Source: a virus. Taken from it: DNA of 34,441 nt. The position numbers and the translations under genes are program-made. The DNA is taken from IMG/VR virus record IMGVR_UViG_3300020182_000103, positions 1-34,441 of that record, one strand, 5' to 3'. How positions within the stretch are numbered: the first letter of the stretch is position 1; each line of letters starts with the position of its first letter. Of the stretch, positions 2,035-29,197 are shown piece after piece. A model generated the notes under the pieces. It was not told the DNA's origin. It searched no databases and was given only the letters and a program-made list of their open reading frames with translations.

Positions 2035-3044
2035 TAAACAAACGAGTTGGTTTTGCATGTAAATTTATGCATTATGATAGAACCCTTAAACCCAAGATGC
2101 TCAAAGAAATCGAAGGTCCGTTGAACTTTCGTGGGACAACCATTCGATGGATGCGTGAACACCTTGATGAAGCACAAGAACGTGTGTATGATATTGTTGA
2201 ACATAATCTAAATGCAACTGAGCGTTTGATTGATTATGTATCAACACTTCCACTACCACAGCGTATGCTTCGAATGGGTAGTGACATGTTACCTGCTTAT
2301 ACAGAAAAAAACTTTGGGCATCTTACCAAAACAAACTATATCACCGATCGTATTGCAAGTAGACTAAGTACTATTGGTGATAAAGCACGAAAGAATGATG
2401 TCAGGTTGTCAATGCATCCAGGTCAATTTACTGTCCTTGCAAGTGACAATCCTGACATTGTTGAAAGTTCAATTGAGGAGTTTGAGTATCATGCAGATAT
2501 CGTACGGTACATGGGCTATGGTCAGCAGTTTCAGGATTTCAAAATCAACATCCACATCTCCGGGCGACAAGGTCCAGCCGGTATCAAAGCCGTCTTGCCA
2601 CGATTATCAAAAGAAGCAAGGAACTGTATTACCATCGAAAATGACGAAAATCGCTGGGGTATCAGTGATAGCCTAGAACTAGCAGATGATGTAGCACTTG
2701 TACTAGATGTTCATCATCACTGGTGCCGTGAAGGTGAATACATTGAAGCCAATGATGATCGTGTTAAACGTGTAATCGATAGTTGGCGTGGTGTTCGTCC
2801 TGCTATGCATCTTAGTATGAGCCGAGAAGATTATATTCATGGACATAGAACTGATGTACTACCAGATTTTAATCAGTTACTAGAAACTGGTCACAAAAAA
2901 GGCAAACTTCGTGCACACAGTGACTACATATGGAATTCAGCGGTAACTGATTGGGCTGGTAGTTTTCGTAATGACTTTGATATCATGGTAGAAGCAAAAG
3001 CAAAAAATCTAGCAAGCATTCCATTTGAAGAGGCAACACGTTAA
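2031..3044 (+). CDS. uvsE: UV damage endonuclease (UvdE/UvsE family)
   Basis: Protein of 337 residues that should nick DNA 5' of UV photoproducts using a metal-dependent TIM-barrel active site, opening an alternative excision-repair route. Visible family motifs are RLSMHPGQF (about 125-133), NIHISG (173-178), TIENDE (201-206), LDVHHH (225-230) and HSDYIW (296-301). These supply the His, Glu and Asp metal ligands typical of UvdE. The length fits a complete bacterial-type enzyme (about 300 residues). It starts with an ATG overlapping the previous stop and is followed directly (TAAATG) by the next gene. For a phage exposed to sunlight the benefit is repair of its own genome or the host's. T4 uses an unrelated enzyme, DenV, for this task. 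Confidence 0.93.
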   Translation: MINKRVGFACKFMHYDRTLKPKMLKEIEGPLNFRGTTIRWMREHLDEAQERVYDIVEHNLNATERLIDYVSTLPLPQRMLRMGSDMLPAYTEKNFGHLTKTNYITDRIASRLSTIGDKARKNDVRLSMHPGQFTVLASDNPDIVESSIEEFEYHADIVRYMGYGQQFQDFKINIHISGRQGPAGIKAVLPRLSKEARNCITIENDENRWGISDSLELADDVALVLDVHHHWCREGEYIEANDDRVKRVIDSWRGVRPAMHLSMSREDYIHGHRTDVLPDFNQLLETGHKKGKLRAHSDYIWNSAVTDWAGSFRNDFDIMVEAKAKNLASIPFEEATR

Positions 3045-3266
3045 ATGTTTACCGTAGAACACGAATTTGATCTATCAAAAGTAACAATCATGGATGAAAA
3101 TAATAATGTCGATGATTTTATTATTAGATTTGCAAGTGATGGTATATACTTTTCTCAATGGGTCGAATCTGAAAATAGACATTGGACTATTTGCATAAAT
3201 CAAAAAATGTTCAGTGAATTTTTACTTGCTTTAAATAAAAGCGAAGGAATGTTCATAACAAAATGA
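3045..3266 (+). CDS. Hypothetical protein, 73 aa
   Basis: Starts immediately after the endonuclease stop (TAAATG). The protein begins MFTVEHEFDLSKVTIMDENN and is predicted from its alternating pattern to be mainly beta-strand, with several aromatic residues (YFSQW, HWTICI). There are no recognisable motifs. Its last codons overlap the ATG of the next small gene, consistent with one polycistronic message. Function unknown. Confidence 0.65.
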   Translation: MFTVEHEFDLSKVTIMDENNNVDDFIIRFASDGIYFSQWVESENRHWTICINQKMFSEFLLALNKSEGMFITK

Positions 3267-3436
3267 GTATTATGCATTGTTGTATGAATTTAGAATTAAG
3301 CAAAACCTGCCAGATAATCAATGCTGATGGGTTAAATTTTGTTGTTAATATAAGTTATTGTAAGAATTGTGGAAGTAAAAAGGTAGTAGGAACTGGTGTA
3401 AGCGATGGAAAACGAAGACAAACTGATGTATCATGA
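3263..3436 (+). CDS. Small cysteine-pair protein, 57 aa
   Basis: Begins at an ATG overlapping the previous TGA (ATGA) and encodes 57 residues starting MSIMHCCMNLELSKTC. There is an HCC pair near the N-terminus and a CKNCG pair in the middle, an arrangement that could bind one zinc ion. The end overlaps the following gene by 32 bases in another frame. No family recognised. Confidence 0.55.
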   Translation: MSIMHCCMNLELSKTCQIINADGLNFVVNISYCKNCGSKKVVGTGVSDGKRRQTDVS

Positions 3437-3860
3437 TATTGAAACAGTTAAGGACGAGGTGGCGAACTTACTAGTATACTATCAACAAGCCGCCATGGCC
3501 ACAACTGGTAAAAAGTTTCCAGAGATATCAAAAGTTACGCCAGTATTACTAGATGATGATAATATATATTTGTTGCTAAGTGATTTGAGTCAACATACCA
3601 CTAATATTAAAACTATCAGTGAGAATGTTTCACTTTATTTCGCTGGAGAAAATAGACATAAAACTGAAATGAATAATGCACGTGTTACCCTATCTGGTAA
3701 ATTAGAACTATACGACAACAAATCAGATGATATATTATCTGCATTTGAACGTAGAGATCGTGGTGCTAGAATGTATGGCAAATTCAATGATTTCAATGTA
3801 TGGAAGTTTATTGAAACCCATAGACTATATGTAGAAGGATTTGGAAAGGCATATAAATGA
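3405..3860 (+). CDS. HugZ-like/PNPOx-fold flavin-type protein
   Basis: Protein of 151 residues that resembles the N-terminal split-barrel domain of HugZ-type proteins in the pyridoxamine 5'-phosphate oxidase superfamily. The order of features fits: a Pro-rich strand, then DDDNIYLLLSDLSQHTTNI, a strand NVSLYFAG, another RVTLSGKLE, and a final ETHRLYVEGFGKAYK that parallels the HugZ VGGFGRA end. Members bind flavin or heme, and some degrade heme. The separate C-terminal heme-utilisation domain of full HugZ is missing. The ATG at 3405 lies inside the preceding gene; an in-frame ATG at 3426 is an alternative start. The substrate cannot be told from sequence. Confidence 0.7.
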   Translation: MENEDKLMYHDIETVKDEVANLLVYYQQAAMATTGKKFPEISKVTPVLLDDDNIYLLLSDLSQHTTNIKTISENVSLYFAGENRHKTEMNNARVTLSGKLELYDNKSDDILSAFERRDRGARMYGKFNDFNVWKFIETHRLYVEGFGKAYK

Positions 3861-4018
3861 GTAAAAAAACGTGTGATGCATTTTTTTGCAGTAATAAAAC
3901 ACCAAAGAAATATAGATACTGTTATGATTGTGCTAAAAATAAAGGTCTTGTTGGTGGTGGGTCTAATTGGTTAGGATGGATTTTATTAATTATTATAATT
4001 CTGGCAATATTCGGATGA
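3857..4018 (+). CDS. Small zinc-ribbon-like membrane protein, 53 aa
   Basis: ATGA overlaps link it to the genes on both sides. The N-terminal half has four cysteines, including a CYDC pair (MSKKTCDAFFCSNKT...YCYDCAKNKG), suggesting a small metal-binding knuckle. A glycine-rich hinge then leads to one hydrophobic segment, WLGWILLIIIILAIFG, at the very end. This looks like a C-tail-anchored inner-membrane microprotein. No family recognised. Confidence 0.6.
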   Translation: MSKKTCDAFFCSNKTPKKYRYCYDCAKNKGLVGGGSNWLGWILLIIIILAIFG

Positions 4019-4296
4019 ATAATACACCGATAAATACATATCAACAGTTAATGGCTATTACCGCAGAAGAATGTGGAGAACTAACACAAGTGTGTATGAA
4101 GCACATTCGTAAGTACAGTGACAAAAAAGAAGTTAATGAAAAATGGGATCATAAACTTATAGAAGAGGCAGGCGATGTTTTATGTATGATTGAATTAATG
4201 GTAGAACATGGACTATTTACAGATACTGATTTACGTGATAGAATAGAAGTTAAGCGAAATAAATTAAAACTCTGGAGTAGTTTAATCAATGAGTAA
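4015..4296 (+). CDS. MazG-like nucleotide pyrophosphohydrolase
   Basis: Protein of 93 residues of the all-alpha NTP pyrophosphohydrolase superfamily, which cleaves NTPs or dNTPs to monophosphates and pyrophosphate. The metal-binding signature is present: EECGE at 18-22 and EEAGD at 50-54. I choose the ATG at 4015, which overlaps the TGA of the preceding gene, over the in-frame ATG further upstream, which lies inside that gene. The start codons read ATG AAT AAT ACA CCG ATA AAT ACA; the GATAAATA-like string there is probably coding coincidence. It lies just upstream of dihydrofolate reductase, so a nucleotide-pool role fits. Substrate unknown. Confidence 0.75.
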   Translation: MNNTPINTYQQLMAITAEECGELTQVCMKHIRKYSDKKEVNEKWDHKLIEEAGDVLCMIELMVEHGLFTDTDLRDRIEVKRNKLKLWSSLINE

Positions 4297-4531
4297 AAAT
4301 GATGAAACATTAAAAGAATACACTGTGACACGTTTAGCGGAAGATAGTAATTTAGATGATAGCGATTTTGCATTTATATTTGACATCGATGGTGATATTC
4401 GCTGTATACAACTTCCATATCATTTATCAGACAATGAAGAATTGCCATTACAAATAGATTCAGTACTTAAATTGATAACAGAGTTTAGACTTAATCAATT
4501 AAAAAGTATAAAGGGAAGGACATACCATTGA
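4289..4531 (+). CDS. Hypothetical acidic protein, 80 aa
   Basis: Overlaps the MazG-like gene by 8 bases and ends at the TTG start of the DHFR gene (TTGA overlap). The protein is acidic in its first half (EDSNLDDSDFAFIFDIDGD) and helical at the end. No known motif is visible. Its place between two nucleotide-metabolism genes says nothing certain about its function. Confidence 0.65.
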   Translation: MSKNDETLKEYTVTRLAEDSNLDDSDFAFIFDIDGDIRCIQLPYHLSDNEELPLQIDSVLKLITEFRLNQLKSIKGRTYH

Positions 4532-5010
4532 TTAGAGTAATACTAGCATGTGACGAAAATTGGGGCATCGGCAAAGATGGTGGCCTTCCGTGGCCACATA
4601 ATTCTGCTGATATGAAGTGGTTTAAAGATACTACGACTGGTTGCGTTGTAGTGATGGGGAAAAGTACATGGGATAGTTTGCCCACAAAGCCATTGCCCAA
4701 TCGCAATAACATTGTTATTACCAGTAGTATACAAGATAAAGATCAAGGTGAATATCATTATATTAAATTTGATACTGCTCAAGTTGAACTTTCCAATATG
4801 AGCAAACTACAAAATGTTTGGATTATTGGTGGTGCACAATTGATTACAGGATTAATCCACATAATTGACGAGTTTCATCTAAGCCGTATTCAAGGATCAT
4901 ATGATTGTGACACATTTTTACCTAGTTCATTGATTGAAGAACAATATTCACTTACGGATAGTGGACTAAGAGGTGATGTATATATCGACGTATGGACAAA
5001 GAGATATTGA
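4528..5010 (+). CDS. folA: Dihydrofolate reductase
   Basis: Reduces dihydrofolate to tetrahydrofolate with NADPH, supporting thymidylate synthesis during phage DNA replication. The 160 residues match the usual bacterial length. Seen are the N-terminal strand RVILACDENWGIGKDG, the substrate loop LPW, the catalytic acidic residue in ADMKWFK (aligning with E. coli Asp27), the NADPH-binding VVMGKSTWDSLP and RNNIVITS, and the WIIGG motif. The start is a TTG that overlaps the previous TGA and has a strong AAGGGAAGGA ribosome site 7 bases upstream. Phage T4 also encodes its own DHFR (frd). Confidence 0.92.
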   Translation: MIRVILACDENWGIGKDGGLPWPHNSADMKWFKDTTTGCVVVMGKSTWDSLPTKPLPNRNNIVITSSIQDKDQGEYHYIKFDTAQVELSNMSKLQNVWIIGGAQLITGLIHIIDEFHLSRIQGSYDCDTFLPSSLIEEQYSLTDSGLRGDVYIDVWTKRY

Positions 5011-5120
5011 CTTATATTAAACTAGACAAAGACAATCGCATGCTAAGACTAGGATTTGGCAAGAACAAAGGTCGATGGTTTGCTAGAATTGATTTATGGT
5101 TTCTTGGAATAAGAATATGA
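4992..5120 (+). CDS. Small basic protein, 42 aa
   Basis: A short frame overlapping the DHFR end by 19 bases. It encodes MDKEILTYIKLDKDNR followed by MLRLGFGKNKGRWFARIDLW, and then FLGIRI. The basic, aromatic pattern and the ATGA junction with the next gene favour a real gene. A shorter version starting at the internal ATG (5040) is possible. No known family. Confidence 0.5.
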   Translation: MDKEILTYIKLDKDNRMLRLGFGKNKGRWFARIDLWFLGIRI

Positions 5121-5353
5121 TAATAGATTGGAACATACAAACTATTAAGAATGAAATAGATAAAATAGCATTTCAAGAAAGTAATCATTCAATGGATGGA
5201 TACAATTGTTGGCATGCAAAAAAAGAATTATATCAAATTTTATGGTACGTCGAAGAAAAATTAAAACGAACTTCCGAATATTCCTTGGAGGATGAATATA
5301 TTCAAAATCATAGAATCAATGAAATGTGGAGTATTTTAAAAGATGATAACTAA
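5117..5353 (+). CDS. Hypothetical protein, 78 aa
   Basis: Start chosen at the ATG at 5117, which overlaps the TGA of the preceding small gene; an in-frame ATG at 5096 lies within that gene. The protein (MIIDWNIQTIKNEIDKIAFQ...) is charged, tryptophan-rich and probably helical, with no cysteine or membrane motif. Function unknown. Confidence 0.6.
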   Translation: MIIDWNIQTIKNEIDKIAFQESNHSMDGYNCWHAKKELYQILWYVEEKLKRTSEYSLEDEYIQNHRINEMWSILKDDN

Positions 5354-5377
5354 TAGTATCATCAGGAGTATTTTATT

Positions 5378-5665
5378 ATGACACGAAAATTAATAACACC
5401 AAAAGATGAAACATCTGATACTAACTTAATAATTAGTCTTTCAGATATTTATGAACAACGTGCGGTAAAAGAAAGAGAATTAGAATTCTATCAAAAAGAA
5501 TTAGAAAAACTAATGTTCAAACTTGGCATGGTTCAACAAGAAATTGGTGTCACCAATACCATTATTAAAATGATTGAAAATGAGCAGGTTCTAGATTTAC
5601 GAGATGCAATACTAGAAAAGAAAACATTAAAAGAGTTGAAAGAAGAAGAGGATCTAAAAAAGTGA
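5378..5665 (+). CDS. Hypothetical coiled-coil protein, 95 aa
   Basis: Preceded by a good ribosome site (AGGAG, 9 bases upstream of the ATG). Residues 25-95 are rich in Glu, Lys and Leu in a heptad-like pattern (KERELEFYQKELEKLMFKLG), predicting a coiled coil. The end overlaps the GTG of a tiny frame (GTGA). No catalytic motif. It could be a structural or oligomerising factor, but I do not recognise it. Confidence 0.7.
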   Translation: MTRKLITPKDETSDTNLIISLSDIYEQRAVKERELEFYQKELEKLMFKLGMVQQEIGVTNTIIKMIENEQVLDLRDAILEKKTLKELKEEEDLKK

Positions 5666-5757
5666 AACGTTTAGTGGCACTATTAAACAGCTTGATAACA
5701 AAGATACTTGGCAAAAAAGATACTAGTATAAAATATCTAAGTGGAAAGAATAAATGA
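5662..5757 (+). CDS. Possible tiny basic peptide, 31 aa
   Basis: A frame of 32 codons starting with GTG inside the previous stop (GTGA) and ending in an ATGA overlap with the homing endonuclease. The peptide is basic and hydrophobic (MKRLVALLNSLITKILGKKD), amphipathic in outline. Perfect junctions on both sides are the main support; the short length makes it uncertain. Confidence 0.35.
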   Translation: MKRLVALLNSLITKILGKKDTSIKYLSGKNK

Positions 5758-6548
5758 AGTTTGAAGATGAAGCATTTGTATATCTCTGGCAAGATGGCAG
5801 ACAGAAACCTTATAGATATTATCTAGGATATCATAAAGGAAATCCTGATGATAGTTACACTCATTCATCTACTGTTTTTGAATCCTTTTCTAAGGATAGT
5901 ATTCCAGGTGGTGTGAGGCGAAGAGTACTCGCTACAGGTTCTGCTGACGAAATGATGGAGTTGGAAACTGCTTTGTTATCAAATCGAAAAGAGCGTAGAT
6001 GGGATAGTTATTATAACGTGAAATGGTATTCTCGTGCTATCGGAAATGTTCATGATATACTAGACGAAAATGGAATAGCTCAATGGAAGCAAAGAATATC
6101 TGAATCTCTTAAAGGAAAACCTAAATCAAATAAAGATAATTATCAGTGGAGTAATACAACAACATCAGAAGAAAGAACAGAACGCTTTGGAAGAAGTTGT
6201 GAACACAATGGAAGATGGAAAGGTGGTATCTCAATAGGAGATAATAAAAAAAATTACTTTAGAATGGACTATGCTGAAAGAAAAAAACTATGTAAGGAAT
6301 TAATAAAACAAGGACTATCTTATTATGAAATAAAAGAAAAACACAAGAGAGCCTTAATTGGTTATCCTCGCGCATTATTACCTCAAGAAATAAAAGACAG
6401 CAAAAACGCATCAAGAAAGAAAGCAGAGAGAAAGATCGCATGTAATGTATGTGAATTTGTCGCCTTGAAGCGACACATTGTACGGTGGCACAACGACAAC
6501 TGTAAGCATAAGAACCCGTTACATGAACTAACAGAGGATGATAAATGA
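5754..6548 (+). CDS. GIY-YIG homing endonuclease, free-standing
   Basis: Protein of 264 residues. The N-terminus (VYLWQDGRQKPYRYYLGYHK, then DDSYTHSS) matches a divergent GIY-YIG nuclease domain in which YLW and YLG replace the GIY and YIG strings. An ISESLKGKPKS segment at about 116-126 is a NUMOD3-type DNA-binding motif, and HNGRWKGG follows at about 152-159. The C-terminus has a C2H2-like finger, CNVCEFVALKRHIVRWH. Such enzymes cut an allele lacking them and spread by recombination. No intron is visible, so it is free-standing, like T4 seg genes. It is wedged between genes by four-base overlaps on both sides, unusually tight for a mobile gene. Confidence 0.75.
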   Translation: MKFEDEAFVYLWQDGRQKPYRYYLGYHKGNPDDSYTHSSTVFESFSKDSIPGGVRRRVLATGSADEMMELETALLSNRKERRWDSYYNVKWYSRAIGNVHDILDENGIAQWKQRISESLKGKPKSNKDNYQWSNTTTSEERTERFGRSCEHNGRWKGGISIGDNKKNYFRMDYAERKKLCKELIKQGLSYYEIKEKHKRALIGYPRALLPQEIKDSKNASRKKAERKIACNVCEFVALKRHIVRWHNDNCKHKNPLHELTEDDK

Positions 6549-7276
6549 TACTCATTATTGGATGTGGGTTTGTCGGCGAAGCAGTAGCAAAAAGTTTAGA
6601 AGATAATGGCACTGATGTAGTTCGGATTGATCCAAAATATAATGATAACAAAATAGAGGATTATCTAGAATATGCTAGAGGAGCGATTGTATGCTTGCCT
6701 ACTCCTACAGTTGACGGCAATTGTGATGATAGTATGATACGTTCAGTACTAAAAGAATTAGGAAATCTATCTGTGCTACTGAAGTCTACTGTGATACCAA
6801 CGATGTTGGACGCTTATGGCAAAAATGTAACATATAATCCAGAATTTCTAAGAGCGAATTCTGCACAACAAGACTTTGATAATCAAAAACATTTTATTCT
6901 TGGTGGTATACAAATGGAATGCTACAAATGGGAACAAGTTTTTAATTATCTTCAAAATGTGAAGTTTTTATATACTGATAGACGTACAGCAAGTATGGTC
7001 AAGTATATGAATAACTGTTGGCTAGCAACTAAAGTTGCATTTTTCCACGAAGTGTTTTCTAACTTGAATGCATCATATGATCATGATGCTATGATTGAAA
7101 TTTTGGCATTGTTTGATAGAATTGGATCTAGTCATATGGCAATGAACGATGAAGGTAAGTTAGGCTTTGGTGGACATTGTTTTCCAAAAGACACACAAGC
7201 ATTTTTAGAATTTTCCGACAGTGATATCTTGCGACAAGTTATACAAACGAATAATAAACTAAGAAACCTAGAATGA
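6545..7276 (+). CDS. Shortened UDP-glucose/GDP-mannose dehydrogenase family protein
   Basis: NAD-dependent sugar-nucleotide dehydrogenase family; such enzymes oxidise the C6 hydroxyl of UDP-glucose or related sugars to the carboxylate. Seen are the Rossmann motif GCGFVGEAVA (6-15), LPTPT (51-55), STVIP (81-85), NPEFLR (98-103) and the active-site GFGGHCFPKDT (207-217) with catalytic Cys212. At 243 residues it lacks the C-terminal UDP-binding domain of the usual 390-450-residue enzyme. It ends soon after the catalytic motif, so it may bind substrate differently or pair with another protein. The start overlaps the endonuclease stop. A role in modifying surface sugars is plausible but unproven. 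Confidence 0.82.
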   Translation: MILIIGCGFVGEAVAKSLEDNGTDVVRIDPKYNDNKIEDYLEYARGAIVCLPTPTVDGNCDDSMIRSVLKELGNLSVLLKSTVIPTMLDAYGKNVTYNPEFLRANSAQQDFDNQKHFILGGIQMECYKWEQVFNYLQNVKFLYTDRRTASMVKYMNNCWLATKVAFFHEVFSNLNASYDHDAMIEILALFDRIGSSHMAMNDEGKLGFGGHCFPKDTQAFLEFSDSDILRQVIQTNNKLRNLE

Positions 7277-8895: not shown

Positions 8896-9338
8896 TGTCT
8901 GATGTTAAGATTATTAATTTTAGTGATATTAAAAAAATTCGTGATGAAAAAATAAAAAAAGAAGATGATTTTTGGCAAAATATCGCTGATCTTATACAAG
9001 ATGATGCCGGAGATATTTTCATAGGCAGTGAAAATAATACCGATATTTTATGGCCTGATTTTTTCTGGGATGAATACATATCAGATGATATTACATCATC
9101 TTCGCCAATGGAGTCTATGTCACGATTTGTAATTAAAGATTTACGTACAGTTGGACTTAATCCCGCAGAAAATAAAATCTCAGATGATATGGTTATTTTA
9201 ACAATGCTATATCATTCCGCAGTTATTGAACATATATCGTCTGCTTGGGAAACAAGTGATGGCAAAGAAAATGAATTTTACCGTTGGTTTGTAAAAATTA
9301 GAAAAGAATTAAATAAAACGAAAGATAGTACACAATGA
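8895..9338 (+). CDS. Hypothetical acidic protein, 147 aa
   Basis: I start it at the ATG at 8895 (MSDVKIINFSDIKKIRDEKI), which shares a base with the previous TAA and has AGGAG upstream; a longer frame from 8844 would lie inside the membrane-protein gene. The protein is acidic, with a tryptophan-rich segment (ILWPDFFWDEYISDD) and a helical C-terminus. No motif recognised. It overlaps the GreA gene by four bases. Confidence 0.65.
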   Translation: MSDVKIINFSDIKKIRDEKIKKEDDFWQNIADLIQDDAGDIFIGSENNTDILWPDFFWDEYISDDITSSSPMESMSRFVIKDLRTVGLNPAENKISDDMVILTMLYHSAVIEHISSAWETSDGKENEFYRWFVKIRKELNKTKDSTQ

Positions 9339-9889
9339 TTTCAACTGCATTTAAAATCAACGACAATGATAAATATACCGATAATAAAAACGATCAGGAA
9401 TATAATACAAATATGGATTTAATAACAAAATTGGGTCTGACTGATCTAGAAAAAAAGATTTCTATTTTAAATAAAAAACGTCCGTTGATAGCAGAACAGA
9501 TCGCAGCGGCAAGAGAAAATGGCGGGATAGAAGAAAACGAAGAATTACATATGTCACTTGATGAAATGAATCGTGTTGAAATCGAAATCAGCAGATTACA
9601 AACAATTGTTCAGAATAGTACACTTCTTGTAATTCCATCTCCAGGAAACTATGATAAAGTTGCACCAGGATTAACAGTAAAATTAGAAAACTTTTTTGTT
9701 GATAAAATCGTAACATATACGATACTTGGCGAAAGTGAAAGTAATCCAAGCGAAGGTAGCATTAGTTTTAAATCACCACTTGGTCGTGAACTTTTAGGTC
9801 TTTGTGTTGGTGATGTTGCCGAGTTAATTCGCGGCGATGATGTTATTGAATATGAAGTTTTAGAAATATACGCAAAGGATATGTCATGA
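9335..9889 (+). CDS. greA: GreA-type transcript cleavage/elongation factor
   Basis: GreA enters the secondary channel of RNA polymerase and stimulates cleavage of backtracked RNA. The protein has an N-terminal coiled coil (about 27-98) with the GreA signature RPLIAEQIAAARENGGIEEN, then a C-terminal FKBP-like domain with TVKLENF, VTYTILGESE, ISFKSPLGRELLG, VGD and YEVLEIY. At 184 residues it is longer than E. coli GreA (158) because of a polar N-terminal extension of about 26 residues; an ATG at 9413 would remove most of it. The coiled-coil tip reads GGIEENEE where E. coli has GDLKENAE, so the position of Asp41 is Gly while Glu44 is kept. It probably acts on the host polymerase during phage transcription. 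Confidence 0.87.
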   Translation: MISTAFKINDNDKYTDNKNDQEYNTNMDLITKLGLTDLEKKISILNKKRPLIAEQIAAARENGGIEENEELHMSLDEMNRVEIEISRLQTIVQNSTLLVIPSPGNYDKVAPGLTVKLENFFVDKIVTYTILGESESNPSEGSISFKSPLGRELLGLCVGDVAELIRGDDVIEYEVLEIYAKDMS

Positions 9890-11303: not shown

Positions 11304-11915
11304 ATGAAATATTTTCGAATTGAACCAACATATAAAAAATCAGTAGTAGAGTTTACATACTTCCGTAGACCTCTTGAAGAATTAACTAATAATGATGAAG
11401 ATAAAGGTAAGTTTGCGTTTCTTCATAAAGAGTTAGGATGGCGATGGGGATCGTTTATGATTTCCGTTCCAGATACACAAGAAGAAATCGATGAATATAT
11501 CGAAGAAGAAGGATATGATAGTGTATTCGAATTTGCTGATGCACATGGTTGCACCATTTGTGTAGATGATAAAGTTATTTTACAAGAAAACTTTTCTATG
11601 GCAGACGTTCTACTTCCATCAACCAATGATGAATGGATTGATTTAACAGAAGACTATCCAAATGCAGAAATGTTAGACTGCTGGGATGGTTGCTGGGAAG
11701 ATTGGAATATCAAAACAAATGGACCAGTACTATCAGACGTTGACGAGATGATGGAAGAAATCGAAGAAGCATACAATGAAGAATATGAAGAAGGTGTCGA
11801 AGAACTAGGTTGGGAATTCCTTGATAATCAGTTTGAAATTCATTGTAATGTTACTGTTGTTGAGTGTGATGAACATGGTCAAGTTGAAGAACAAGAAGAA
11901 GAGGCAACCATATAA
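11304..11915 (+). CDS. Hypothetical very acidic protein, 203 aa
   Basis: Ribosome site AGGTG upstream. The protein is strongly acidic, especially the last third ([18 protein letters not shown] and [11 protein letters not shown]), and has several tryptophans and paired cysteines ([19 protein letters not shown]). Such an acidic charge could mimic DNA or bind a basic partner, which is speculation. It overlaps the ATG of the GMP reductase by one base. No family recognised. Confidence 0.7.
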
Positions 11916-13066
11916 TGCGCATTGAGAATGAAGTACTACTAGATTATAGTGATGTCCTAATTCGTCCAAAACGTAGCACATTGAGTAGTCGCAGTCAAGT
12001 AAAACTTGAGCGTAGTTTCATATTTCGTAATCACAACGCATATGGACCAGGCCCGCGCGGCTGGACACCACATTACACTGGTGTTCCTATTATGGCAAGT
12101 AATATGGATGGGGTTGGTACATTTGAAATGGCAGATACTTTAGCCAGTCAGAATATTTTTACATGTCTTGTAAAAACATACTCGGCAGAACAACTTATAG
12201 AATATTTTGATCATTTTAATAGCAATAGAGAAGAGCGTACAGAAAATGTTGCTATGAGTATTGGCACAAGCGATGATGATTTTAAAAAATTAGTTGAAGT
12301 GATCCATGACGTTGGTGATGGATTAAAATACGTATGTATGGATATTGCAAATGGATATAGTGAACATTTCGTTGAACACATTTACAAAGTGCGCACAGAA
12401 TTTCCTCAATTAGTAATCATTGCTGGTAATGTTGTTACCGCGGATCAAACACAAGAGTTAATATTAAATGGAGCCGATATTGTTAAAGTGGGCATTGGGC
12501 CTGGCAGCGTTTGTACTACTCGTATTCAGACTGGTGTTGGCTACCCGCAACTCTCCGCGGTTATCGAATGTGCAGATGCGGCCCATGGACTCGGTGGGCA
12601 TATTATCGCTGATGGGGGTTGTACTTGTCCAGGTGATGTAGCAAAAGCATTTGCTGGTGGTGCTGATTTTGTGATGCTCGGTGGTATGCTTGCTGGACAT
12701 ATTGAAGGTGGTGGTAATGTTATCACCAAAATGTATGAAACATCAGAAGTAACAAGAACGGATGATGGTTTTTATGAAACTGTATACAACGAAAAAAAGT
12801 TTGTACAATTTTATGGCATGAGTAGTGATGCTGCGAATACAAAACACTTTGGCGGTCTTAAAGACTATCGTAGTAGTGAAGGTCGAGAAGTTCTAGTTCC
12901 CTTTCGTGGAGAAGTATCACATACAATTCAGAATATTTTTGGAGGTATCCGATCAACTTGTACCTATGCGGGGGCTGAAAAATTAAAACAGTTGACAAAG
13001 TGTACTACATTTGTTAGAGTTAATAATCAATTTAATACGGTATATGCCAACAGCAATGTAAAATAA
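11915..13066 (+). CDS. guaC: GMP reductase (IMPDH/GMPR family)
   Basis: Converts GMP to IMP and ammonia with NADPH, returning guanine nucleotides to the adenine branch. The 383-residue TIM-barrel protein shows the opening [20 protein letters not shown] (10-29), [16 protein letters not shown] (58-73), [11 protein letters not shown] (193-203) with catalytic Cys200 and the Thr two residues after it, [17 protein letters not shown] and [11 protein letters not shown]. There are no inserted CBS domains and the start and motif order are GuaC-like. Several positions differ from bacterial GuaC, for example MDGVG rather than MDTVG and an insert of about 10 residues at 40-50. IMP dehydrogenase activity is the alternative but fits less well. 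Confidence 0.85.
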
Positions 13067-13838: not shown

Positions 13839-14918
13839 ATGAACAACTATATTTTTACGAGTGAAAGTGTGAGTGATGGTCATCCTGATAAAGTAGCAGA
13901 CCAAATATCAGATGCATTAGTTGATGCAGGATTAAGAGCAGGCGATGAAACAACACGTGTTGCTATTGAAACACTTGTAACTACCAACATGGTAACATTA
14001 GCAGGCGAAGTAAAAAACTTTAATGTAACTGATGATCAAGTTAAAGAAATTGTTAGAAGTAAAGTTCGTGAAATTGGATATGAACAGGATGGATTTCATT
14101 GGGACAAATTAAAAATTTATAATGAAATTCATGCACAAAGTGCAGACATTGCATTGGGAACTGATAACTTCGGCGCAGGAGATCAGGGTATTATGTTTGG
14201 TTATGCGTGTAACGATAATGATGCATACTTGCCTGCACCTATTTACTATAGTCATGAAATACTTAAAACACTTAAACTACAACGCCAGGATATATTGGGA
14301 CCGGATGCAAAGTCACAAGTAAGTGTCGAATATGAAGGCGGTAAAGTTAAACGTATTGACCAAGTTGTGATAAGTACACAGCATGTCGAAGGTAAAGTTG
14401 AACAAGCAATAAATATAAGTAAAGTTGCTGCAATGAATGTATTGGGAGACTTAGTAGATGACAACACTATATGGCATCTTAATCCTACAGGTAATTTTGT
14501 TATCGGTGGTCCTGACGGTGATGCTGGTGTCACAGGAAGAAAGATTATCGTGGACACTTATGGCGGTTTCGCTCCTCATGGTGGTGGCGCTTTTAGTGGC
14601 AAGGATCCTACTAAAGTCGACCGCTCTGCAGCCTATATGGCTCGTTGGCTTGCTAAAAATATTGTAGCAGATGAAATGGCTGATTGGTGCCAAATACAAC
14701 TAAGTTATGCTATTGGTGTTAAACAACCCACAAGTATCTATATAGATTCAAACGGACATAATCGCTCAATTCAAAAGTTTATTGAGAGTAGTATTGATAT
14801 GACTCCCAAAGGAATCATTGATAGATTCGATTTGTTTAACTTTAATAATTATAGTGAGAACTGTACTTATGGACACTTTGGTAACAAAGATGTTCCTTGG
14901 GAACGTATTGGCTGGTAA
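13839..14918 (+). CDS. metK: S-adenosylmethionine synthetase
   Basis: Makes S-adenosylmethionine from methionine and ATP, releasing phosphate and pyrophosphate. The 359 residues hold all main MetK motifs: FTSESVSDGHPDKVADQISD (6-25), GAGDQGIMFGYA (112-123), IGGPDGDAGVTGRKIIVDTY (222-241) and GGGAFSGKDPTKVDRSAAY (248-266). It is slightly shorter than the usual 380-400, mostly through a trimmed C-terminus and loops. AGAGGAAC sits just before the ATG. It is followed by a glutaredoxin gene. SAM could feed phage methyltransferases or alter host regulation, but no methyltransferase is seen in this window. Confidence 0.93.
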   Translation: MNNYIFTSESVSDGHPDKVADQISDALVDAGLRAGDETTRVAIETLVTTNMVTLAGEVKNFNVTDDQVKEIVRSKVREIGYEQDGFHWDKLKIYNEIHAQSADIALGTDNFGAGDQGIMFGYACNDNDAYLPAPIYYSHEILKTLKLQRQDILGPDAKSQVSVEYEGGKVKRIDQVVISTQHVEGKVEQAINISKVAAMNVLGDLVDDNTIWHLNPTGNFVIGGPDGDAGVTGRKIIVDTYGGFAPHGGGAFSGKDPTKVDRSAAYMARWLAKNIVADEMADWCQIQLSYAIGVKQPTSIYIDSNGHNRSIQKFIESSIDMTPKGIIDRFDLFNFNNYSENCTYGHFGNKDVPWERIGW

Positions 14919-25089: not shown

Positions 25090-25123
25090 ATAGTTATCTT
25101 TTTATCGGTTTGCTTTAAATACT

Positions 25124-25225
25124 GGTGCAGAGATTCATTTCTCTGTACTTTAGGGTGAATAATTCACCCTATAGTCCTCTTCGCAAACTTGGCCCGGCTA
25201 CTTAGGTAGTCGGGTTCTTTTGTTT
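25124..25225 (+). ncRNA. Candidate structured non-coding RNA, three hairpins
   Basis: No gene lies in 25090-25242. Three hairpins follow each other: a 10-bp stem with G-U pairs (25124-25133 with 25140-25149), a 9-bp perfect stem (25151-25159 with 25163-25171), and a 9-bp stem with one G-U pair (25193-25201 with 25206-25214) followed by T-rich TTCTTTTGTTT. About 20 unpaired bases (25172-25192, with CCTCTTCGCAAAC) separate the last two. A TTTAAATAC late-like motif at 25114-25122 could start it. It may be a small RNA of about 100 bases or a structured 3' end. Confidence 0.5.
25193..25225 (+). terminator. Intrinsic terminator
   Basis: CCCGGCTAC pairs with GTAGTCGGG over a TTAG loop, followed by TTCTTTTGTTT. 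This is a standard Rho-independent terminator shape, ending the unit before the Coq4-like gene. Confidence 0.75.
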
Positions 25226-25242
25226 AATGAATAAATATAATT

Positions 25243-25782
25243 ATGATAAACTATGGTGATTGGAATCCAGGCATTGACAATGGCAATGACACACTTAATT
25301 CTGTGTTAGACACATTGCCGGGTAGTGATAGTGTAAATATTAGTTGGAAAGTAAAAATAATAGAAAATCCTCGGTCACCATTGAGTCTTCCTGGTTCTAT
25401 ATGTTTAGAGTCCCACGATTGTATACATGTATTATTAGGAAGAGGACTACTAAATCAAGACGAAGCATTTGTAATAGGCTATACTATGGGAAATGCAATC
25501 ACACTAAAGAATTGGCAAATATCAATGTATAAATACTATGCATCACATATATTTCCAAAGATATATCGTTTTGGCGAAAGAGAATTAATAGCATTTGATA
25601 TGGGGATTGTTTACGGCAAGACTCGTCGTACTAAAAATATACATAAAATTAACTTTGACTCATATAAGAACCAAACACTGGGAGAGATTAGGGCCAAATT
25701 TGATATAAACTTAGATATACTTCGCCATATCAGATATATTGAAAGAAATATTTTTAAAAGCAAGGCGAGTAAAAGGCTATGA
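25243..25782 (+). CDS. Coq4-like ubiquinone-biosynthesis family protein
   Basis: Protein of 179 residues with the motif HDCIH at 58-62 followed after exactly 11 residues by Glu74. This reproduces the HDxxH-x11-E signature of the Coq4 family, a metal-binding helical protein needed for ubiquinone biosynthesis. Around it stand LPGSICLESHDCIHVLLGRG and DEAFVIGYTMGNA. It is shorter than cellular Coq4 (usually 220 or more). Its TGA overlaps the ATG of the PutA gene, so the two are coupled. No ribosome site is seen; an AATAAATATA late-like motif stands four bases before the ATG, so the message may be nearly leaderless. Catalysis on quinone precursors remains inference. Confidence 0.72.
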   Translation: MINYGDWNPGIDNGNDTLNSVLDTLPGSDSVNISWKVKIIENPRSPLSLPGSICLESHDCIHVLLGRGLLNQDEAFVIGYTMGNAITLKNWQISMYKYYASHIFPKIYRFGERELIAFDMGIVYGKTRRTKNIHKINFDSYKNQTLGEIRAKFDINLDILRHIRYIERNIFKSKASKRL

Positions 25783-28622
25783 AAGTATATCAACATAATA
25801 TGTATTATCGCATTGATGAAAACGAAATCATGCCTAAGTTAATATTGGCAGCCAGATTAAATAAAGATGACCGAAAAGAAATATTATCAACTGCAAATAT
25901 TATTAATGATTCATTTAATGAAACGAGTTTAATTCATAAACTTATGACTGCGTATAAGTTGTCAGGCAATGAGGGTATTGCATTAATGACAATGTGTGAA
26001 AGTTTATTAAGAATACCAGATAAGAAAACACAAGATAAATTAATTAAAGAAAAATTAACAAATGCTGATTGGAATTTAATTTCTGAAGGCAGTTTTTATG
26101 CAACCTTAGGAGGCAAAGCATTAACACAAGCACAAAGTTTTGCAGAATATAAAAATTTAATTGGAAGATTAGGTTGGCCGACTGTTCGCACTATAGTAAA
26201 ACAAACCGTTAAATGGATGGGCAATATATATGTCGTGGGTGAAAGCATTTCTAGTGCAATGAATAATAAAAATGAGTCTTATTCATATTCATATGATATG
26301 CTGGGAGAAGCCTCGACAAACTGGGAAGATGCGAATAATTATTATGAAAAGTATATAGAAGCAGCCACCCGATTTGATGATAGTATAAGTGTTAAACTAA
26401 GTGCAATACATCCACGATATGAGTTGAGAAATTATAAAGATGTAATTTCCCATCTTGTACCTAAACTTGCAGCAATAGCAAGGTTATGCGAAGATAAGAA
26501 TACTACAATGTTTATTGATGCAGAAGAGGCATCTAGATTTGATTTAAGTGTTCAAGTATTAGAGGAGTTGTTATCAAGTCATAAGTTTCAGGAAAACACA
26601 ATTGGATTTGCGATACAAGCATATCAAAAACGTTCTTATTGGGCAATTGAAACACTAGAATCTATAGCAAAAAAATCTAATACATCAATATGTGTACGTT
26701 TAGTTAAAGGTGCATATTGGGATACAGAAATAAAACTGGCTCAACAAGAAGGCTTGCACTATCCTGTATTCTCTCGTAAAGAATATACTGACATAAGTTA
26801 TTTGGCATGTGCTAGAAAAATTATGTTATCTGAGTATATTAAACCAGCATATGCCACACACAATCCATTCACCGTGGCAGCCATATATTTTTATAACGAA
26901 ACTGTAGGAGGTGAATTCGAGTTTCAAAAATTATATGGTATGGGGGATGGACTATTTCAATATCTACATGATACCCACAATACGAATGTAAGAGTATATG
27001 CACCAGTTGGTGAATATAAAGATTTGCTTGCATATCTTGTGCGAAGATTATTAGAAAATGGAGCAAACACCAGTTTTGTTTTTAATCAAAAACTTGTAGA
27101 TCCATTTGTAGAAGCAAAAAAAGAACGAGAAAAATTACCAACATATGAAGATTTATATCCCAATCGCAAGAATAGTCGTGGATATGATTTAACTGATCCA
27201 GCGTGGATTGAATGGGTGGTAGGAAGACCGAGTTATGAATTTATAGTACCAGAACAACTATCAGTAGAAGATAGTATTACAATTTTAGATGAAGGTAAAT
27301 CTAAATGGGCGAAGACTCCATTCGCAGAGAGAAAACGTTTAATTCTTTTATATGCCGACAACTTAGAACATCATATGGAACAAGCTGCCAGTAATTTAGT
27401 TGTACATGCACATAAGACTTATGCAAGTGCTATCAGTGAGGTTCGTGAAGCGATAGACTTTATTAGATATTATGCTGAACAAGCCGAACAACTTTATGAT
27501 ACTAAATGTGCATGTAGTTATACGGGCGAAAGTAATACAACAACATACGAATCGTATGGTACATGGATGGTTATTTCACCGTGGAACTTTCCACTTGCAC
27601 TTTTTGTAGGACCTATTGTTGCTGCACTAATAACCGGCAATACAGTGTTAGCAAAGTCAGCGCCCCAAACACAAATGGTTGCGGAAACTGCTTTAAGTTC
27701 TATGCTTGAAAGTGGCATACCAGAATATGCTATTAAATTATGTCCGACTGATCCAAAAGATGCGGAACTTGCAGTAGCAGATGAAAGAATTAAAGGCATT
27801 ACATTTACTGGTTCACATAAAACTGCAAAGCGTATACAAAGAGTTTTAGCAGATCGTGAAGGAGCAATTATTCCATTCATTGCTGAAACTAGTGGTATTA
27901 ATTGCATGATTGCAGATTCAACATGTTTGCCTGAACAATTAGTAGTAGATGCGATACGTGGCGCATTTGATAGTGCAGGACAAAGATGTAGTGCAACAAG
28001 ATTTTTATTTGTACAGCGTGATAATGCAAATACTGTAATAAAAATGTTAGGTAATGCTATTAAAGTTGTCCAGATGGGATTTAGTGATGATTTAAATACT
28101 GATGTGACACGTGTTATCGATAGTGAGGCGTATAGAAGAATACAAAATAGACTATCGGTATTAGAAGAAAATGAAATATTAATTGCAACCAGATCAAGAA
28201 ATGGTGCTGAATTGCCGGCTTTAACAGTTCCACCGAGTGCATATCTTGTATCAGATTATCGTAAGTATTTTGATGAAGAAATATTTGGTCCAATATTACA
28301 TGTTTATGAATATGATGTTGATGAATTGCCTGAAATTTTAGATTATATTAATAATAGCAGATTCGGGTTAACAATGAGTATTCATTCTAGAATATCATCT
28401 TTTTATGATAATATTATTAATCAGATTAACGTAGGAAATATCTATGTTAATAGAGATCAAATTGGAGCAGTAGTAGAAACACAACCATTTGGAGGAGTTG
28501 GATTAAGTGGCACTGGTCCAAAAGCAGGTGGACCAAATTATTTAAAATCATATGTATGGGAAAAACATATTAGTATTAATACGACTGCAATTGGAGGTAA
28601 TACAACATTATTATCTGGGTGA
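25779..28622 (+). CDS. putA: Bifunctional proline dehydrogenase / P5C dehydrogenase (PutA)
   Basis: Oxidises proline to glutamate in two steps, passing the first electron pair through FAD to ubiquinone and the second to NAD. The 947 residues keep both domains. PRODH: SVKLSAIHPRYE (204-215), RLVKGAYWD (307-315), THNPFT, EFQKLYGMGD (381-390) and YLVRRLLENGANTSF (419-433) with the substrate-binding Arg pair. Aldehyde dehydrogenase: ISPWNFP (599-605), FTGS, general base Glu703 in AETSG, nucleophile Cys737 in GQRCSA, EIFGP (834-838) and QPFGG (902-906). No ribbon-helix-helix DNA-binding domain is present, so it should not act as a repressor. It is coupled to the Coq4-like gene. A full PutA is large for a phage metabolic gene. 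Confidence 0.93.
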   Translation: MKVYQHNMYYRIDENEIMPKLILAARLNKDDRKEILSTANIINDSFNETSLIHKLMTAYKLSGNEGIALMTMCESLLRIPDKKTQDKLIKEKLTNADWNLISEGSFYATLGGKALTQAQSFAEYKNLIGRLGWPTVRTIVKQTVKWMGNIYVVGESISSAMNNKNESYSYSYDMLGEASTNWEDANNYYEKYIEAATRFDDSISVKLSAIHPRYELRNYKDVISHLVPKLAAIARLCEDKNTTMFIDAEEASRFDLSVQVLEELLSSHKFQENTIGFAIQAYQKRSYWAIETLESIAKKSNTSICVRLVKGAYWDTEIKLAQQEGLHYPVFSRKEYTDISYLACARKIMLSEYIKPAYATHNPFTVAAIYFYNETVGGEFEFQKLYGMGDGLFQYLHDTHNTNVRVYAPVGEYKDLLAYLVRRLLENGANTSFVFNQKLVDPFVEAKKEREKLPTYEDLYPNRKNSRGYDLTDPAWIEWVVGRPSYEFIVPEQLSVEDSITILDEGKSKWAKTPFAERKRLILLYADNLEHHMEQAASNLVVHAHKTYASAISEVREAIDFIRYYAEQAEQLYDTKCACSYTGESNTTTYESYGTWMVISPWNFPLALFVGPIVAALITGNTVLAKSAPQTQMVAETALSSMLESGIPEYAIKLCPTDPKDAELAVADERIKGITFTGSHKTAKRIQRVLADREGAIIPFIAETSGINCMIADSTCLPEQLVVDAIRGAFDSAGQRCSATRFLFVQRDNANTVIKMLGNAIKVVQMGFSDDLNTDVTRVIDSEAYRRIQNRLSVLEENEILIATRSRNGAELPALTVPPSAYLVSDYRKYFDEEIFGPILHVYEYDVDELPEILDYINNSRFGLTMSIHSRISSFYDNIINQINVGNIYVNRDQIGAVVETQPFGGVGLSGTGPKAGGPNYLKSYVWEKHISINTTAIGGNTTLLSG

Positions 28623-28840: not shown

Positions 28841-29197
28841 ATGACAAATCCATTTGAAGATATTGAACGCTTTGCGGCAGCATGTGACCAACCCGCATCT
28901 CCAGAAAATTATAAAATGTATCTGGGATTAATTGATGAAGAATATGGTGAATTAGTAGATGCAGTTACTGCGAATGATCAGGTAGAACAACTTGATGCAC
29001 TTGTAGATATTCTGGTTGTTACTATGGGAGCAATTCGTGCTGCAGGATGGGACAGTGAAGCGGCGTGGAATGAAGTGATGAATACTAACTTTGCAAAAAT
29101 TAATCCTACAACTGGCAAAGTTATTAAGAGAGAAGATGGCAAAGTATTAAAACCAGAAGGATGGAAAGCACCAGAATTAAAACAATTCATTAAATAA
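28841..29197 (+). CDS. MazG-like/PRA-PH-type pyrophosphohydrolase
   Basis: Second all-alpha NTP pyrophosphohydrolase-like protein of the window (118 residues). The signature is DEEYGELVD (32-40) with the EExxE pattern, followed by EQLDALVDI (49-57), giving the ExxD part. The C-terminal part reads TNFAKINPTTGKVIKREDGK, a stretch I know from phage and bacterial phosphoribosyl-ATP pyrophosphohydrolase-like proteins. It is not closely similar to the protein at 4015. It has its own strong promoter and a GAGGTAAT ribosome site. Substrate unknown; nucleotide clearance or ppGpp-related control are possible. Confidence 0.82.
   Translation: MTNPFEDIERFAAACDQPASPENYKMYLGLIDEEYGELVDAVTANDQVEQLDALVDILVVTMGAIRAAGWDSEAAWNEVMNTNFAKINPTTGKVIKREDGKVLKPEGWKAPELKQFIK

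Follow-up and report, generated by a model that had tools for sequence, protein, structure and literature searches.

PutA is a membrane-associated proline:quinone oxidoreductase. The title of a work cited in PMC5786444 names it a proline:ubiquinone oxidoreductase, and direct binding of CoQ1 by proline dehydrogenase has been described (PMC4752965). Human COQ4 is reported to carry out oxidative decarboxylation at C1 (PMC11495197). The protein Alr8543 (6e12) binds metal at an HDxxH-x11-E motif and carries a fatty acid, oleate; an earlier model of the same protein carried prenyl phosphate (PMC9774615). Among viruses, ubiG has been reported from the Baltic Sea (PMC9301287). No description of a phage PutA or proline dehydrogenase (PRODH), or of a phage Coq4, was found in the literature searched, which left most subscription journals uncovered.

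We analysed a 34,441-base stretch of viral DNA, referred to here as the window, in which a Coq4-like gene (Coq4L) lies directly ahead of putA (Table 1). An earlier note on this DNA had described an exact HDxxH-x11-E motif in the Coq4-like protein, a four-base overlap between its stop codon and the putA start, and a full-length PutA; each of these descriptions was borne out. The motif comprises HDCIH at residues 58 to 62, 11 further residues and then E74. Elsewhere the window encodes a clamp loader of the T4-type family with 53% identity to its counterparts in Pseudomonas phage PA5oct and that phage's relatives, together with a tail fibre and DNA polymerase-related genes. The longest related record bearing both genes measures 155 kb, and the longest of the relatives in which putA stands alone 343 kb. 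In the account we prefer, to which as a whole we give about an even chance, large T4-related phages carry Coq4L and putA as an optional metabolic cassette whose two products serve one process. The window also encodes an S-adenosylmethionine synthetase (13839-14918), an IMP dehydrogenase/GMP reductase (11915-13066), a GreA/GreB-type elongation factor (9335-9889) and a short UDP-glucose-dehydrogenase-like protein (6545-7276).

Table 1. Features of the Coq4L-putA cassette and its flanks, in window coordinates.
Feature	Position	Strand	Remarks
Structured RNA, upstream of cassette	25116..25225	+	about 110 nt, three hairpins
TAAATA box of RNA element	25116-25121	+	
RNA hairpins	near 25126-25147 and 25152-25170	+	
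Invariant RNA core AGTCCTCTTCGC	25173-25184	+	
Terminator-like hairpin and T-run	25193-25214	+	end of RNA element
TAAATA box, possible T4-type late promoter	25232..25237	+	5 nt before Coq4L start codon; consensus match only
Coq4L gene	25243..25782	+	179 aa; HDCIH-x11-E; signature HDxxH-x-LLGRG-xxxxDEAFVIGxTMG
ATGA overlap, Coq4L stop / putA start	25779..25782	+	4 bases
putA	25779..28622	+	947 aa; predicted bifunctional proline dehydrogenase / L-glutamate-gamma-semialdehyde dehydrogenase; without ribbon-helix-helix domain
MazG-like nucleotide pyrophosphohydrolase	28841..29197	+	right-hand cassette border

The putA product contains the Pfam domains Pro_dh-DNA_bdg, Pro_dh and Aldedh, scores 1000.9 bits against NCBIfam PRK11904 (curated cut-off 747) and aligns from residue 10 to its end with the Bradyrhizobium PutA structures (3haz/4q73). 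The motifs of both catalytic domains aligned with those of known PutA, including RLVKGAYWD at residue 307, LVRRLLENGAN at 420, SPWNFP at 600 and GQRCS at 734, with IAETSG also present. By its domains and motifs the open reading frame is thus a full bifunctional PutA, with a predicted activity as proline:quinone oxidoreductase. Full-length PutA matches obtained from named phage genomes were set aside, as these came from contigs that bear the label phage but are packed with bacterial genes. The INPHARED record of Acinetobacter phage MD-2021a and several Salmonella, Staphylococcus and Listeria 'phage' records resemble bacterial genome contigs because they carry many housekeeping dehydrogenases; metabolic genes would be over-counted among viruses wherever bacterial contigs are filed in this way.

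The affiliation of Coq4L was less direct. Searches of Pfam, PHROGs, NCBIfam, PADLOC and the PDB with the window protein, as a single sequence or as an alignment, gave nothing useful, no homologue was present in the named phage genomes searched, and a degenerate DNA motif scan returned false matches only. A scan of bacterial genomes yielded 14 homologues with 38-47% identity over the core. The gene is rare in the order and class of the alphaproteobacterium G013, with 4 clear matches among 195 genomes of the former and 7 among 385 of the latter. All four motif residues were invariant in 45 of 45 relatives, and the centre of the alignment, given as the signature in Table 1, was very conserved. 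The Pfam Coq4 model (PF05019; gathering score 22.9 bits) did not match Coq4L of the window at E values up to 10, nor that of any related phage record with the same arrangement (group A, below). It matched 2 of 18 relatives weakly (best E 8e-4) and gave 18.0 bits in G017, and the family cut-off was thus not reached by Coq4L. Conversely, profile-profile comparison (hhalign) of Coq4L with canonical bacterial Coq4 gave a probability of 95% and an E value of 1.7e-8, with the HDxxH-x11-E motif and a C-terminal arginine in register. This match spans only columns 132 to 232 of 264, that is, the second half of Coq4.

An AlphaFold2 model built from 18 diverse alignment rows was helical with a pLDDT of 91; with five near-identical rows only, the pLDDT was 36. 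Its best PDB matches were 6e12 (Nostoc Alr8543; Z 7.8; 4.4 Å over 121 residues) and 3msq (an Npun protein; Z 7.1), both Coq4 homologues of Nostoc. The third-ranked of the chains compared had a Z of 2.9. Values of Z below 8 are modest and were read jointly with the hhalign result, and on this joint reading Coq4L has the Coq4 fold. The Foldseek match to the PDB was weak when taken alone (E 0.67), and a Foldseek search of viral structures found nothing.

Because the fold matches Coq4 homologues, the profiles match and the Pfam Coq4 model weakly recognises some relatives, we place Coq4L in a sister subfamily of Coq4. It is not Coq4 proper, since it falls below the family cut-off, matches the second half of Coq4 only, has aspartate where Coq4 has glycine ahead of the motif glutamate (G138 is invariant in 8 Coq4 sequences; D73 is found in 42 of 45 Coq4L rows) and coexists with a separate canonical Coq4 gene in genomes G011 and G018. 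At 179 residues against the 221 positions of the Pfam model, it is also without the N-terminal part of Coq4. A 163-residue HDCTH-x11-E protein, flanked by lon/hupB-like genes and by aldehyde dehydrogenase and NADH-quinone oxidoreductase-like genes, was seen at two further loci (L075 and L076, in the genomes G524 and G399 of about 1.4 Mb) and belongs to a Coq4-like group more distant still.

These departures bear on the function of the protein. Were Coq4L a working Coq4, acting as a C1 oxidative decarboxylase/hydroxylase or as an organiser of the ubiquinone complex, it could enlarge the host ubiquinone pool that receives electrons from PutA. The exact motif, the fold, a ubiquinone-reducing neighbour and the precedent of human COQ4 as a C1 decarboxylase (PMC11495197) would agree with such a role. 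Against it stand the sub-threshold Pfam score, the short second-half match, the substituted glycine, the canonical Coq4 in G011 and G018 and the lack of any other ubi gene adjacent to Coq4L. Furthermore, the subfamily has members in cyanobacterial, spirochaete and planctomycete genomes, lineages in which ubiquinone synthesis is not known, which argues against a plain role in ubiquinone biosynthesis. We therefore consider a ubiquinone-making Coq4L unlikely, and the earlier note's proposal that the phage protein raises ubiquinone supply was not upheld.

We sought the two-gene pair in other genomes and found it to be more general than had been claimed. In every member of group A (the window, L001, L002, L003, L004 and L005) Coq4L precedes putA with a four-base overlap; L001 is identical to the window in sequence, and L001 and L156 represent the same virus as the window. 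In viral contig L085 (5.6 kb) the order is reversed, putA then Coq4L, again with four bases shared. A ribonucleotide-reductase-like and a RuvC-like resolvase reading frame lie before this putA, and the contig is of probable viral origin. Among Cellvibrio-clade genomes with a close Coq4L homologue, putA was directly upstream in five of five, at a spacing of 7-16 bp in the three measured; no description of this chromosomal pair was found in the papers searched. Four-base overlaps occur at about 9 of the approximately 57 gene junctions of the window, and taken singly the Coq4L/putA overlap is ordinary for this genome. Its recurrence in every group-A contig and, with reversed order, in the unrelated contig L085 exceeds chance.

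A link to proline dehydrogenase was also found where this enzyme is not fused. In two lineages of a third set of phages (group B; L092 and L094/L096), a proline dehydrogenase that stands alone lies some 0.7-1.4 kb upstream of Coq4L. At a crude background rate drawn from proline-dehydrogenase/PutA matches in 50,697 phage records, the chance of at least two such linkages in 13 contigs is about 2e-4. The other side of this count is that 10 of the 13 group-B contigs with Coq4L have no proline dehydrogenase on the contig. Phage Coq4-like genes standing apart from PutA or any quinone enzyme were what the earlier note had named as evidence against its coupling, and they weigh against it in part, given that these contigs may be fragments. 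An aldehyde dehydrogenase of uncertain substrate is present in 11 of the 13, a saccharopine-dehydrogenase-like gene adjoins Coq4L in L086, L089 and L098, and the steadiest neighbour in group B is a small NMN-transporter-like membrane protein. This protein, of 75-84 residues, overlaps or adjoins Coq4L on its downstream side in L087, L092, L093, L094, L096 and L098, and in L098 it matches the C-terminal portion of NMN transporter family proteins.

Viewed from putA, Coq4L was adjacent at 7 of 12 viral loci with visible flanks (the seven include L001/L156, so that fewer are independent), and none of the loci in the same scan with an aldehyde dehydrogenase only had Coq4L within 3 kb. PutA does not need Coq4L, because putA occurs without a nearby Coq4L in four related viral genomes and in viral contig L166. 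In the latter (2914-7199), a stand-alone aldehyde-dehydrogenase-like reading frame has a four-base overlap with a full putA, without Coq4L. Outside Cellvibrio, bacterial Coq4L neighbourhoods shared no partner across clades, and proline dehydrogenase was not nearby for most cellular homologues. In Kordiimonas and G148 (L026, L029 and L079), Coq4L ends or adjoins an ABC-transporter operon whose genes read as NitT/TauT-type transporter and TelA-like genes.

That the linkage follows proline dehydrogenase, fused or stand-alone, could be expected if Coq4L were a metal-dependent enzyme whose substrate was not quinone but a soluble intermediate or by-product of proline breakdown (P5C, glutamate semialdehyde or a hydroxyproline derivative). 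The strict HDxxH...DE metal motif and the occurrence of members in lineages with different quinones would suit such an enzyme. A step of this sort is not known. Moreover, P5C is already channelled by PutA and the nearest fold is lipid-binding (6e12 with oleate, PMC9774615), and we regard this activity as improbable.

A structured RNA precedes the cassette. It is kept in every group-A phage, in every phage with putA alone and at two sites lacking the cassette, having been seen in L003, L004, L005, L011, L013, L014, L148 and L151 besides the window. Both sides of the pair were altered in a compensatory manner in 6 of 15 predicted pairs, and Rfam returned no family at E < 0.5 for the RNA of the window or of four related loci. 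A second conserved segment, containing CCCTTCT...AGAGGTCTTCTA, was seen upstream of putA in phages without Coq4L (L011 7540-8000, L013 7370-8000 and L014 7590-8000) and is possibly another structured RNA. The sequence TAAATA occurs 30 times on the plus and 11 times on the minus strand of the window. Eleven of the 30 plus-strand boxes lie no more than 70 nt upstream of a plus-strand reading frame, a zone that makes up 11.6% of the window; the boxes thus favour the coding strand and the starts of genes. The box ahead of Coq4L, by itself, suggests that the cassette may be expressed late.

Three states were observed at one site behind the common RNA: empty (L148 and L151), putA alone (L011-L014) and Coq4L-putA. 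At the empty sites other small phage genes come after the RNA, and the shared downstream 'SEEELDEKM' gene comes next, without the cassette. In L002/L010, a 146-kb relative, Coq4L is identical to that of the window and putA is only 82% identical, revealing recombination inside a cassette whose pair was kept whole. Values of dN/dS were 0.03-0.07 for Coq4L and 0.08-0.15 for putA, with synonymous sites near saturation in the deeper pairs, and both genes are under strong purifying selection. Intact, situated among phage genes and selected in this manner, the two are candidate auxiliary metabolic genes.

A gene tree, from which two canonical Coq4 rows had been dropped as long-branch artefacts of a first tree, rejected a single clade of putA-linked Coq4L (group-A phages, L085 and Cellvibrio; p-AU 0.004). 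In the PutA tree, which has long branches, Cellvibrio PutA grouped with other cellular PutA and not with viral PutA. The two trees therefore indicate either repeated origins of the pair or its shuffling among lineages, and in both cases selection for the pair offers the simplest explanation, with the caveat of long branches and gene transfer. These data also address the prospect that two unrelated cargo genes met by chance at a phage genome slot whose content varies. The slot does vary, four-base overlaps are common in the window, and PutA and Coq4L have recombined separately. Yet the pair outlasts that recombination, its putA-linked copies do not descend from one ancestor by the Coq4L tree, and the association recurs with putA in L085 and the Cellvibrio clade and with proline dehydrogenase in two group-B lineages, a count whose crude expectation was given above. 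A fortuitous meeting of the two genes is unlikely.

Thus, the Coq4L-putA link is probably a real partnership in proline oxidation, with Coq4L something other than an ordinary ubiquinone-making enzyme. Given the Coq4 fold, the intact metal motif and the translational coupling to PutA, the most plausible role for Coq4L is that of a quinone- or membrane-side partner of PutA within the optional phage cassette; with the role drawn from fold and partner, we judge this as likely to be right as wrong. That the protein is dedicated to proline dehydrogenases as their quinone-side partner, in bacteria and phages alike, and is undescribed in the papers searched, is a more tentative proposition and somewhat doubtful. 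Under the partnership we favour, PutA would convert proline to glutamate, passing electrons from its FAD to the host membrane quinone, and its second domain would make NADH. Coq4L, as a small and presumably metal-binding protein of Coq4 fold from a bacterial sister subfamily, would serve the same process by binding, presenting or modifying quinone or another prenyl lipid, or by docking PutA, and would catalyse no canonical step of ubiquinone synthesis. Translational coupling would keep the two proteins in step, and the infection may gain electrons, NADH and glutamate. Of the earlier note's overall reading, the Coq4-related profile and fold (the model superposes on Coq4 structures), the conserved module and the recurrent link to proline dehydrogenase have stood, and the making of ubiquinone has not.

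If Coq4L is such a dedicated partner, an accessory protein of proline oxidation has been missed and phages carry the whole unit, while one part of the Coq4 superfamily works with quinone-linked dehydrogenases and not in quinone synthesis. Viruses and unrelated bacteria indicate one partner for this Coq4-like subfamily, an enzyme feeding electrons into the quinone pool, and the link to PutA gives a concrete lead on the role of this branch. It also suggests that proline may fuel infection by some phages.

Comparison with described systems places the cassette as follows. The phage PutA resembles type A Bradyrhizobium PutA (3HAZ) along its full length and in both catalytic domains and their motifs, but lacks about 50 residues, most of them between the catalytic domains and at the N-terminus of the aldehyde dehydrogenase; viral PutA sequences form their own branch apart from cellular PutA, with long branches. 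Coq4L shares with Coq4 (PF05019; 6E12, 3MSQ) a helical fold and the aligned motif and arginine, and differs from it in its length, its Pfam score, its DEAFVIG-x-TMG and LLGRG signatures, the aspartate before the motif glutamate and its coexistence with canonical Coq4 in some cells. The Cellvibrio chromosomal pair has both gene families, adjacent and on one strand, whereas its gene order is opposite to that of group-A phages and both genes lie on other branches. Finally, like the electron-transport auxiliary gene ubiG of Baltic Sea viruses, the cassette could alter host quinone or respiratory flow; it differs in coupling a flavoenzyme for proline oxidation to a protein of Coq4 fold.
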